In this document: positions 7,098 to 11,516 of the stretch, piece by piece
Layout of the letters: each line of letters opens with the position of its first letter
How positions within the stretch are numbered: position 1 is the stretch's first letter
Source of the DNA: Actinomycetota bacterium
Lineage (GTDB): Bacteria > Actinomycetota > Actinomycetes > Actinomycetales > Kineosporiaceae
DNA length: 34,626 nucleotides
Direction: 5' to 3'
NCBI GenBank assembly: GCA_030837505.1
Contig: JAUPKJ010000209.1
Location: 1 to 34,626, forward strand
Position numbers and translations under genes: made by a program
Notes under the pieces: model-generated
What the model was told of the DNA's origin: nothing
Seen by the model: the letters and a program-made list of their open reading frames with translations, nothing else
Databases searched by the model: none

Positions 7098-8513
7098 TCA
7101 GCCCGGCCTGCGGGCGGTGAGGTCCCGCACCTCGGCGTAGCGGGCCCGGACGGCCGGGGCGGGTTCCGCCCGGAGGACCTCGGTGCCGGGCAGCTCCCAG
7201 ACGGGCGGTTCGTCCCTGCCCCGCAGGACCCAGGCCGCCTGGCGTGCGGCGCCGTCGGCGACGTACTCCCCGGGCGGCGGGACGACGACCTGGTGGCCCA
7301 GGACGGCCGGGGCGATCCGGCGCAGAGCCTCCGACCGGGCGCCCCCACCGACCAACAGCACGCGTTCGACCCTCGCGCCCTGCGCGACGAGCGCGTCCAG
7401 ACCGTCGGCCAGACCGCACAGCAGTCCTTCGACCGCGGCCCTGGCGATATGCGCGGGAACGGCCGTGTCCAGGCGCAGACCGTGCAGGGCACCGGTGGCG
7501 TCGGGACGGTTCGGGGTCCGCTCGCCCTCCAGATAGGGCACGAGGGTCAGCCCGCCGCAGCCCGAGGGCGCGGTCAGGGCCAGCCGGGACAGCTCGTCGA
7601 GGTCGACCCCGAGCATCGTGGCCGTCGCGGACAGGACCCTCGCGGCGTTGAGGGTGCAGACCAGGGGAAGGTACCGGCCCGTGGCGTCGGCGAAACCGGC
7701 CACGGCACCCGAGGCATCCGCGGCAGGGACCTCCGCGACGGCGCTGACCACGCCGGAGGTCCCGATCGAGACGATGACGTCGCCCGGTCCGGCCCCCACC
7801 CCGAGGGCCGCTGCCATGTTGTCGCCCGTGCCGGGGCCCAGGAGCGCACCGGTGCACACCCCTTCGGCGGCGGCCGTACCCGCGGACTGCGACGGTCCCA
7901 GTACGCGGGGCAGGACGGCGTCGTGGCCGAGGGCCGCTGCGAGCAGGTCGCGGCGGTACTCGCCGGTCGCGGCGGAGAAGTAGCCCGTGCCCGAGGCGTC
8001 GCCGCGGTCGGTGACCAGGGCGTCCAGGCCGGGGGAGCCCGCGAGCTTCCAGGTGATCCAGTCGTGGGGCAGACAGACGGCGGCGACCTTCGCGGCGTTC
8101 TCGGGCTCGTGCTCGGCGAGCCAGGCGAGCTTGGTGACGGTGAAGGAGGCCACGGGTACCAGGCCGAGGTCGCGGGCCCAGGTCCCGGCACCGCCGTGGT
8201 CCTGCGTCAGACGCGTGGCCTGCGGGGCGGAGCGGGTGTCGTTCCACAGGAGGGCCGGGCGCACGACGTTCCCGGCGGCGTCCAGGGTGACCATGCCGTG
8301 CTGCTGACCGCCCACCGCGACGGCCTCGACGTCGTCGAGCCCGCCGGCCTGCGCAACCGCCTCCTGCAGCGCCGACCACCAGTGGTCGGGGTGGATCTCG
8401 GTCCCGTCCGGGTGCACGGCGCGTCCCGAACGCACCAGTTCACCGGTGTCGGAGCGGCGGATCACAACTTTGCAGGACTGCGTGGAGGAATCGATTCCCG
8501 CGACCAGAGCCAT
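7098..8513 (-). CDS. xylB: Xylulokinase
   Basis: XylB phosphorylates D-xylulose to xylulose 5-phosphate, feeding the pentose phosphate pathway. The 471-residue FGGY kinase has the N-terminal phosphate loop [14 protein letters not shown], the substrate motif GGQQHGMV (68-74), [12 protein letters not shown] (148-159), and the catalytic aspartate D231 in [11 protein letters not shown]. The C-terminal ATP fold shows [10 protein letters not shown] (250-259) and [11 protein letters not shown]. Length is normal for the family. ATG 8513 is preceded by a GAGAGGA ribosome site. It lies 126 bases downstream of xylA on the same strand, so the two form a xylAB operon with the promoter at about 10070. Confidence 0.95.
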
Positions 8514-8639: not shown

Positions 8640-9833
8640 TCAGCGGGCACCCATGAGGTGCTCGACGGCCAGCTGGTTGAGGCGGACGAAACCGCAGCCG
8701 CGCTTGCCGACGGCCACGGCGTCGAAGTCCTCGAAGGCGCTGCGGTCGCTGAGCAGGTCCTCGACGGACTCGCCCGCCGCGAGGGTGGGCAGGGCCAGCT
8801 CGCCGATCTTGGCGTCGACCATGGCCTGCTGGACCTCGGGGTCGGCCCGGAAGGCCAGGGCGCGCTCCTTGAGCAGCAGGTAGGTGCGCATGTTGGCGGC
8901 CGCGGAGGCCCACACGCCGTCGAAGTCCTCCGTGCGCAGGGGCTTGTAGTCGAAGTGCCGCGGGCCGTCGTAGGAGTTCGCGCCCTCGACGCCGTTCTCC
9001 AGCAGGTCGACCAGGAAGAAGGCGTTGATCAGGTCGCCGTGACCGAAGATCAGGTCCTGGTCGTACTTCACGCCGCGCTGGCCGTTGAGGTCGATGTGGA
9101 ACAGCTTGCCGTGCCACAGGGCCTGGGCCACACCGTGGACGAAGTTCAGGCCCGCCATCTGCTCGTGCCCGACCTCGGGGTTCAGGCCGACCATGTCGGC
9201 GTGCTCGAGGCTGTTGATGAAGGCGAGCGCGTGGCCGATCGTCGGGAGGATGATGTCGCCGCGGGGCTCGTTGGGCTTGGGCTCCAGCGCGAAGCGCAGG
9301 CCGTAGCCGCGGTCCTTGACGTAGCCGGCCAGGGTGTCCAGGCCCTCGCGGTAGCGGTCCAGGGCGATCCGCACGTCCTTGGCGGCCTCGCTCTCGCTGC
9401 CCTCGCGGCCGCCCCAGAAGACGTACGTCGAGGCGCCGAGTTCTGCGGCCAGGTCGAGGTTGCGCATGACCTTGCGCAGGGCGTACCGGCGCACGGTGCG
9501 GTCGTTGCTGGTGAACCCGCCGTCCTTGAACACCGGCTGGCTGAACAGGTTGGTGGTCACCATCGGGACCTTCATGCCGGTCCGTGCGAGGGCGGCCTTG
9601 AAGTCCGCGATCTTCTTGTCGCGCGTGGCGGCGTCCGATCCGAAGGGGATCAGGTCGTCGTCGTGGAAGGTGACACCGTAGGCGCCCAGCTCGGACAGCC
9701 GTTCCACCGACTCCACCGGGTCGAGGGGGGCCCGGGTGACAGCGCCGAAGGGATCCTGGGCCTGCCAGCCGACGGTCCACAGACCGAACGTGAAACGGTC
9801 CGCAGGGGTGGGCTGGGTGGTGGACTGCGTCAT
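8640..9833 (-). CDS. xylA: Xylose isomerase
   Basis: XylA converts D-xylose to D-xylulose with two divalent metal ions. The 397-residue protein is the short, actinobacterial class I form. Visible active-site residues are H57 and D60 in [13 protein letters not shown]184 and K186 in [13 protein letters not shown]220 and H223 in [12 protein letters not shown]248 in HIDLNGQ, D258 and D260 in KYDQDLIFG, and D295 in FDYKP. The VFWGGREG signature is present. Start ATG 9833 follows a GGAGG site. It is first in the xylAB operon, divergent from the ROK regulator at 10242. Confidence 0.98.
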
Positions 9834-10052
9834 GTGTTCCTCCGGGGTCTGCCGTCTCCGATCGGCTGTGGAAGCGGGCGGACCGATCGTTCCGGGCTCC
9901 GCCCACCGACGTCCCCTCCCCTGTTCGAGGACGTGGTTCTCAGGTCGAGCCCGCGTGAACAGGGAACGGTCACGATTCGAGCATCGGCCGGGAACGGGGC
10001 CGGCAGGAGTGGGATCGGTCAGGGACTTGGTTCGATTGTCGTGTGGAACGAC

Positions 10053-10096
10053 TTCGTTCAGGTACTGAACCTATGCCATGGTGGGGCGGGTGGCAA
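10053..10096 (-). promoter_or_regulatory. xylAB promoter with ROK operator
   Basis: Read on the minus strand, -35 TTGCCA (10096-10091), a 17-base spacer and -10 TAGGTT (10073-10068) put the start point near 10061, leaving a leader of about 230 bases. The operator-like element TTCGTTC-N7-GAAC (10053-10070) overlaps the -10 and start point. Inside it, GTTCAG-GTA-CTGAAC (10056-10070) is a perfect palindrome. A second palindrome, GAACGA-CT-TCGTTC, is at 10046-10059. The position suits repression by a ROK XylR protein relieved by xylose. The rest of 9834-10241 holds no gene. Confidence 0.6.
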
Positions 10097-10205
10097 TGGG
10101 TGGAGGAGATGAACTCCTCGTCCGCAGCAGTACCGTGGCGGGGCTCCTGCTTGGGGGGCGGGCCGTTCGAGACGCCATCTTCACGCCTCCTGAGTCATCT
10201 GGAGG

Positions 10206-10235
10206 TTGTTCGTTCGCTATGTGAACGAATATCAT
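10206..10235 (+). promoter_or_regulatory. ROK regulator promoter with autoregulatory operator
   Basis: -35 TTGTTC (10206-10211), an 18-base spacer and -10 TATCAT (10230-10235) predict transcription starting at 10242, the A of the ROK start codon, so the mRNA is probably leaderless. The spacer holds a perfect inverted repeat, TTCGTTC (10209-10215), N7, GAACGAA (10223-10229), matching the xylA-side operator in arm and spacing. Confidence 0.65.
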
Positions 10236-10241
10236 CGGGGA

Positions 10242-11516
10242 ATGCCTGTGTCCCGATCGGCCCCGGCTCGCCAGCGTTCCCTGCGCGAGCACAACCTCGC
10301 GCTCGTCCTCGGGGCGGTCGCCAGGACCGGGCCCCAGTCGCGGGCCAGGCTGGCCGCTGCCACGGGGTTGACCAAGGCGACGGTCTCCAGCCTCGTGGAC
10401 ACCCTGGTCACGGGCGGTCTGCTGCAGGAGCTGGGTCCGTCCGCCGGGGGAGTGGAGGATCGCCCCACCCCCGGCCGCCCGGGGCTGCCCCTGGGGCTGT
10501 CCCCCGACGGACCGGTCGGCATCGGGCTGGAGATCAACGTCGACTACATCGCCTGCTGCACCGTGGATCTCGCGCAGAATCTGCGACGGCGCGAGACCGT
10601 GATCGCCGACCTGCGCGACCAGCCCTTCGGGGTCGTGCTCGATCGCGCAGCCTCGGCCCTGTCGCGAGCCCTGTCCGACGCCCACGGGCACGGGCCCGTC
10701 GCCGGGGTCTCCGTGGCCGTGCCGGGGCTGGTCGACACCGACCACGGGGTCCTGCACCTCGCCCCCAACCTCGGCTGGCGCGACCTGCACGTCGTGGAGG
10801 AGCTGCGCCGTCGGTGCGGCGAACACGACCTGCCCATCAAACTGGAGAACGAGGCGAACCTCGCGGCCCTCGGGGAACTGTGGTGCGGCGGTCTGCGCAC
10901 CGACGAGGGCGAGCCCCTGCGGACCTTCGGGTACATCTCCGGGGAGATCGGGGTGGGGGCGGGGCTCGTGATGGACGGGCGCCTCTTCCGCGGCCAGCGC
11001 GGCTTCGGGGGCGAGCTGGGTCACCTGCCGGTCAGTCCCGACGGACCGGTGTGCAGTTGCGGTGCCACCGGTTGTCTGGAACGGATCGCCGGTCAGGACG
11101 CCATCCTGTCCCGGGCCGGACTGGACTGTGTGACAGGGCCGGTGACCAACAGCGAGGAGAGACGGCTCAGCGTCCTGCTGGAGCGCGCCCGGGAGGGCGA
11201 TCCGCGGGCGATCGGCGCGATCGAGGAGGCCGGCCAGGCCCTGGGCTCCGGGATGGCGGCCCTGGTGAATGTCGTCGACGTCGACACCGTGGTGCTCGGG
11301 GGGATGTACGCCCTGCTGGCACCGTGGCTGTTCGAACCGGCCCGCCGGGAGCTGGAACGCCGCGTGGTCGGGATGCGCTGGGCCCCGGTCCGTCTGCTCG
11401 TGTCCGGGGTCGGGCAGGACGCTGCGGTCCGCGGGGCAGCCGGTCTCATGATCCAGAAGGTCGTCGCCGATCCGGCCTCCTACGTGGGCGCCCGTTCCGA
11501 TCGTTCGGTCGGCTGA
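10242..11516 (+). CDS. ROK-family transcriptional repressor (XylR-like)
   Basis: The 424-residue protein has an N-terminal winged helix-turn-helix (about residues 20-65, GPQSRARLAAATGLTKATVSSLVDTLV) joined to a ROK sugar-binding fold. The ROK part shows GIGLEINVDYIACC, SVAVPGLVDTDHG, ENEANLAALGELW, and the signature GFGGELGHLPV followed by the zinc-binding CSCGATGCLE. Members with the HTH are repressors that leave DNA when the sugar binds. Divergence from xylAB and the shared operator make XylR the best role (inference). ATG 10242 is chosen because the -10 box ends 6 bases before it. A TTG at 10206 is in frame but forms part of the -35, and GTG 10248 is a weaker alternative. Confidence 0.88.
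   Translation: MPVSRSAPARQRSLREHNLALVLGAVARTGPQSRARLAAATGLTKATVSSLVDTLVTGGLLQELGPSAGGVEDRPTPGRPGLPLGLSPDGPVGIGLEINVDYIACCTVDLAQNLRRRETVIADLRDQPFGVVLDRAASALSRALSDAHGHGPVAGVSVAVPGLVDTDHGVLHLAPNLGWRDLHVVEELRRRCGEHDLPIKLENEANLAALGELWCGGLRTDEGEPLRTFGYISGEIGVGAGLVMDGRLFRGQRGFGGELGHLPVSPDGPVCSCGATGCLERIAGQDAILSRAGLDCVTGPVTNSEERRLSVLLERAREGDPRAIGAIEEAGQALGSGMAALVNVVDVDTVVLGGMYALLAPWLFEPARRELERRVVGMRWAPVRLLVSGVGQDAAVRGAAGLMIQKVVADPASYVGARSDRSVG

Follow-up and report, generated by a model that had tools for sequence, protein, structure and literature searches.

Matching operator-like sites at the divergent xylA and xylR promoters of an actinobacterial xylose locus point to control by one ROK-family regulator

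What controls a xylose isomerase gene that lies divergent from a gene for a ROK-family regulator, when the same inverted repeat recurs at the promoters of both? The question is raised by contig JAUPKJ010000209.1 of a Kineosporiaceae genome assembly (GCA_030837505.1), here called the window: the whole stretch of DNA that was analysed, 34,626 nucleotides in length. We propose, with a probability of roughly 0.86, that the DNA between the two genes is a control region for xylose utilisation: the divergent ROK gene would encode the local XylR, xylose would release repression at two operators (O1 and O2), and xylR would be transcribed as a leaderless mRNA. The features on which the argument turns are as follows.

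7098 to 8513, minus strand: xylB, xylulokinase (TIGR01312, 411 bits, cut-off 380)
8640 to 9833, minus strand: xylA, xylose isomerase (TIGR02631, 691 bits, cut-off 447)
9834 to 10061, minus strand: predicted xylA leader, about 228 nt
10053 to 10073, minus strand: operator O1, TTCGTTC-AGGTACT-GAACCTA on the plus strand, overlapping the xylA -10 and the predicted transcription start
10068 to 10073, minus strand: xylA -10, TAGGTT, read from the sequence, within the right arm of O1
10091 to 10096, minus strand: xylA -35, TTGCCA, 17 bp from the -10
10206 to 10211, plus strand: putative xylR -35, TTGTTC, with three of six consensus bases, overlapping the left arm of O2
10209 to 10229, plus strand: operator O2, a perfect 7-7-7 palindrome, TTCGTTC-GCTATGT-GAACGAA, adjoining the xylR -10
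10230 to 10235, plus strand: xylR -10, TATCAT, with an 18 bp spacer from the -35 and 6 nt before the ATG at 10242
10242 to 11516, plus strand: xylR, ROK-family regulator with a winged helix-turn-helix (PF00480, 167.5 bits, cut-off 22.9), predicted leaderless from ATG 10242

Profile matches agree with the calls of xylA and of a ROK gene made in an earlier, sequence-only reading of this DNA. The N-terminus of the ROK protein matches MarR_2 and HTH_IclR above cut-off (residues 21-63), and residues 12 to 400 align with the ROK regulator 1z05; the alignment with glucokinase 3vov begins only at residue 134 of the query. Where the glucokinase has LENDAN, the Asp of which we take to be the catalytic residue, the window protein has LENEAN, a difference that would fit a regulator without kinase activity. 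The protein falls far under the NCBIfam equivalog cut-offs for NagC (114 against 650 bits) and Mlc (105 against 530), and there is no XylR model among the 11 NCBIfam families that it matches.

A pattern search recovered both of the sites from which the sequence-only reading had started, TTCGTTC-N7-GAAC at 10053-10070 and the full palindrome at 10209-10229. The window holds three matches to TTCGTTC-N7-GAAC, at 10053-10070 (plus), 10209-10226 (plus) and 10212-10229 (minus), the last because O2, as a perfect palindrome, is matched on both strands; none of 100 dinucleotide shuffles reached three, and across the whole window there is no further occurrence beyond O1 and O2. With the full 21-mer and up to three mismatches, the whole window yields only 10053-10073 (two mismatches) and 10209-10229 (none), a result that is not significant by itself: 13 of 100 shuffles gave two or more. 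The perfect 21-bp palindrome occurs a single time in the 4.52 Mb assembly; with up to two mismatches allowed, the 21-mer is found at 17 places, against two for the reversed pattern. Scored with a motif learned outside the window's family (see below), O1 (20.8 bits) and O2 (15.4 bits) rank first and second among all positions of the window; the third scores 6.4. A separate inverted repeat, GAACGA-CT-TCGTTC at 10046-10059, overlaps O1 with its arms in the opposite order; among 37 intergenic regions a pattern of this type occurs in the window only.

Both sites lie on promoter elements. The hexamers and distances given in the sequence-only reading proved correct when the sequence was read again, including the overlap of O1 with the xylA -10 (TAGGTT, the complement of 10068-10073); that the right end of O1 must double as a -10 may be why O1 is an imperfect palindrome. 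The same reading had O2 filling the spacer between the -35 and -10 of the ROK gene: O2 does adjoin the -10, but at its other end it reaches beyond the spacer to take in the final three bases of the -35. A scan of 9780-10300 with a strict sigma-70 consensus found no promoter on either strand; both promoters are thus weak by that standard, and the case for them rests on position and conservation. A consensus terminator scan found none. At about 228 nt, the predicted xylA leader is the longest among the 35 loci that yielded an estimate. An RNA element within it (9834-10061) was considered and rejected: the leader has no Rfam match, and it folds no better than its shuffles (z -0.04).

A search of related genomes for the pattern had been suggested at the outset. 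The sample comprised 50 loci of closely related ROK genes, fetched because they scored best and therefore non-random: 29 were new, from 114 of 394 class genomes with a match, nine came from 14 of 248 order genomes, ten from 8 of 13 family genomes, and two were named contigs. In 37 (window included) the ROK gene is divergent from xylA. A 21-bp motif, palindromic and ungapped by design, was learned by expectation-maximisation on the 29 xylA/xylR intergenic regions from outside the window's family. Its consensus is TTAGTTC-AGTCACT-GAACTAA and its log-likelihood ratio 343, compared with 28-34 for three base-shuffled sets (run with fewer restarts). All 37 divergent loci examined carry a site above 12 bits: the 29 used in training, where the lowest best-site score is 17.9 bits, and the eight same-family loci unseen by training, where it is 15.3. 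A test of spacing that makes no use of the motif gave the same picture: at x = 9, the spacing of the window, TTNGTT-Nx-AACNNA matches 23 of the 37 intergenic regions, and at each of the ten other values of x from 5 to 15 it matches none. Among the 13 loci without a divergent xylA, the four with a judgeable xylA upstream region (L055, L062, L068, L069) have a 19.8-21.2-bit site there; two end before the region (L061, L067) and seven have no xylA. Sites of 13.7-14.7 bits, unconnected to xylA, occur in two loci of the last kind (L077, L079).

Position relative to the promoter is conserved as well. In 26 of the 37 loci the best xylA -10 lies at offset 15 of the operator, within its right arm, and in nine at offset 19-21, the edge; two have no passing hexamer. 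We asked for a -10 with at least three of six consensus bases within the operator or at its edge, together with a -35 with at least four of six bases 16-19 bp away. This arrangement is present in 32 loci and absent from five; when the 40 upstream bases were shuffled (200 trials) it appeared in 3.0 loci on average and in eight at most. Within the window's family, the pattern search gave 21 distinct places, 11 of them between xylA and xylR and ten elsewhere; for the latter, neighbours were identified at L017, L024, L031 and L036. At L024 and L036 (genus g5) a 7-7-7 site coincides with, or lies close to, the start of another ROK gene, which suggests that other ROK regulators of that genus may use the same geometry.

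Which protein occupies the sites? Synteny makes the neighbouring ROK protein the strongest candidate, as does a parallel shift of operator arms and recognition helix in one clade of seven loci. In these loci (L066, L070, L071, L073-L076) the arms carry GTCC/GTCT or ATCC in place of GTTC, giving TTAGTC or TTAATC, and the recognition helix is TKTTVS, as opposed to TKATVS or TRATVS; since the seven form a single clade, the shift counts as one event. In the remaining loci both arms and helix vary without a clear rule. That one regulator serves both promoters had been argued from the shared arm and seven-base spacing, and synteny and conservation now lend that argument support: very probably, a single sugar-sensing repressor controls xylA and the regulator gene alike.

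By analogy with reports on the XylR proteins of Streptomyces and Bacillus, we infer that the protein is a repressor and that xylose is its inducer. Without xylose, XylR would occupy O1, blocking the -10 and transcription start of xylA, with xylB behind it, and would also occupy O2, within its own promoter between the -35 and the -10. Xylose, or a close sugar, would free XylR and both units would be expressed. The 5′ end of the xylR mRNA would fall at the start codon or within one or two bases of it.

The leaderless start of xylR, first proposed from the TATCAT six bases before the ATG, is a prediction that the window shares with its whole family sample. All eight same-family loci have a -10-like hexamer whose end lies 5-9 nt ahead of the xylR start, a property shared by 148 of the 1360 positions in those regions (10.9%); the eight represent five genera, and their start codons were chosen after inspection, six of the eight offering one candidate start only. 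No Shine-Dalgarno-like word was found before xylR in the window, where the spacing is TATCAT-6-ATG; one of the other loci (L016) also has a Shine-Dalgarno-like AGGA, which is part of its own -10. Among the xylR starts of other families, several are preceded by a Shine-Dalgarno-like sequence or lack a nearby -10-like hexamer, which means that leaderlessness is not universal. In Streptomyces lividans the distance from -10 to transcription start is reported to average 6.3 nt, which the window spacing fits, and 17% of transcripts to be leaderless (PMC8079986); PMC3160421 puts the predicted leaderless share of actinobacterial genes above twenty percent. A leaderless mRNA is an ordinary trait in Actinobacteria.

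Two operators are less usual. Two sites above 12 bits occur in six of the 37 loci: five of the window's family (G000, which is the window's genome, G003 and G010-G012) and one of another family (L060). In the 29 loci outside the family a single operator is the arrangement in 28; the one-operator layout is the rule among the 37 loci and the two-operator layout the exception. On the XylR tree, which is midpoint rooted and leaves out L058 (its sequence ends at a contig edge), the window falls in a clade with support 99/97 (G000, G001, G003, G010-G012), of whose six members five have two sites, one at each promoter. The sixth, G001, has an operator at xylA only, its second-best site scoring 3.3 bits; two further same-family loci (L014, L015), each with a single site, branch elsewhere. 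The one-or-two label requires three changes on this tree, against 5.7 when labels are shuffled.

In 15 of the 29 outside loci, and in L014 and L015, the right arm of the operator is followed 17-18 bp later by NANNGT and, 6-8 nt further on, by the xylR start, an arrangement that would let one set of bases act as the xylR -35 and, on the opposite strand, as the xylA -10. The xylA -35 is TTGACA or TTGACC in 15 of these 17 interlocked loci and runs over the final three bases of the xylR -10; two of the 17 (L059, L064) have no passing xylA -10. The pattern is absent from 14 outside loci (seven of family f35, three of f54, and L007, L008, L060 and L063), several of which have Shine-Dalgarno-like sequences before xylR. 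It was drawn up after the sequences had been viewed, and the shuffle control (mean 0.065, maximum one of 29) therefore overstates its significance.

Other explanations of the paired sites can now be weighed. The operators could answer to a second ROK regulator of the genome (G000:C189), which alone or together with XylR would bind them as a pathway-wide sugar regulator. This protein is 45% identical to the window ROK, its gene (L006, 5958-7148) is divergent from one for a ChvE-type sugar-binding protein (NF040907, 467 bits, cut-off 460), and the 7-7-7 site TTTGTTG-CAGGGTC-TAACTAA in front of it makes cross-regulation possible. Rok7B7 of S. coelicolor, which we would guess to be closer to this second protein than to the window ROK, is a ROK protein without an adjacent xylA that has been tied to xylose use, as proposed for the window; its specific binding to DNA is reported as undetected by EMSA (PMC4856308). 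However, the arms of the site at the G000:C189 gene are different, the xyl motif gives that site just 9.9 bits, the recognition helices differ (NRSTVGR against TKATVSS in the window), and all 37 loci in which a ROK gene is divergent from xylA carry the operator; we consider control by the second regulator unlikely. Nor do we claim that the xylose regulon of this genome extends further. The ChvE-type locus has only the weak site just mentioned; at least two other places outscore O2, only candidates found by pattern having been scored, and both lie beside genes without a known link to xylose. One (L029, G000:C342:6307-6327) is an 18.3-bit operator-like site over the start codon of a gene for an ABC transporter ATPase, the subtype of which is settled by no NCBIfam cut-off; the other (L003, G000:C7:5709-5729), TTTGTTCGTTCATTGTACGAA, scores 18.5 bits near an open reading frame without a Pfam match.

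It is also conceivable that XylR represses at O1 only and that O2 is a relic, with some other effect or with none. G001, of the same clade, has a leaderless-type xylR promoter without a second operator, and to that extent O2 is dispensable; O2 is moreover the weaker match in all five two-site loci of the family, as judged by a motif trained mostly on xylA-type sites. Against this, O2 is a perfect palindrome placed between -35 and -10, where a bound protein would be expected to block polymerase, and a second site is retained in three genera of the family. An idle O2 seems to us improbable, in about the same degree as control by the second regulator. That the repeats are chance palindromes without function deserves hardly any credence: the mismatch-tolerant 21-mer does turn up twice or more in some shuffles, as noted above, but one spacing conserved in every divergent locus, together with the position on promoters, speaks strongly against chance. 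Repression by XylR at both O1 and O2 remains the reading that we prefer.

How does such a switch compare with known systems? Bacillus XylR, as described in PMC9104551, is likewise a ROK repressor of xylA and xylB, with an operator of GTTT-N7-AAAC geometry, equal to that of the window sites, and regulates both PxylR and PxylAB. The window differs in its arms (TTCGTTC rather than the GTTT type), in having one operator per promoter and in the predicted leaderless xylR; the Bacillus site is placed between the -10 and the ribosome-binding site (PMC9104551), whereas O1 lies on the xylA -10. Sites upstream of xylR in many Firmicutes species have been taken to suggest autoregulation (PMC2873477). Among actinobacteria, the XylR of S. 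lividans and S. avermitilis is presented as a putative repressor of a xylose-inducible xylA, as proposed here: a deletion study in S. lividans is reported to show it as a repressor, and the S. avermitilis xylA promoter became 24-fold xylose-responsive on adding XylR (PMC6149001). There, unlike in the window, xylA diverges from xylB, and xylR is expressed from the side of the latter; the main text of that paper contains none of the words operator, palindrome, inverted repeat or ROK. The arms of the RokB site at novH in S. coelicolor, TTTGTTC/GAACAAA, are nearly identical to those of the window, but they are spaced by 11 rather than seven bases and the protein is described with other targets (PMC4856308). 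For Bifidobacterium, a XylR whose regulon has been reconstructed is listed as regulating the use of xylose (PMC4746261). No actinobacterial XylR operator, and no consensus for one, was found in the open-access literature searched, mostly as listings, the RegPrecise motif for Bifidobacterium lying outside the comparison.

The twin sites at xylA and xylR are a variant of the known XylR-type switch rather than a new kind. As to how the variant arose, we narrowly favour the view that the common design of the class is a single XylR operator, the right half of which serves both as the -10 of xylA and as the -35 of a leaderless xylR: the two promoters would compete for polymerase and one repressor would shut both. 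In the clade of the window the promoters would have parted and a second operator arisen, autoregulation thereby being split from control of xylAB; the direction, from one operator to two, is inferred. The loci would then provide a natural series that begins with a single interlocked divergent promoter and ends with a pair of promoters under separate control. They also supply a testable XylR operator consensus spanning many families of a single bacterial class, and may aid the building of xylose-inducible expression tools in these bacteria.
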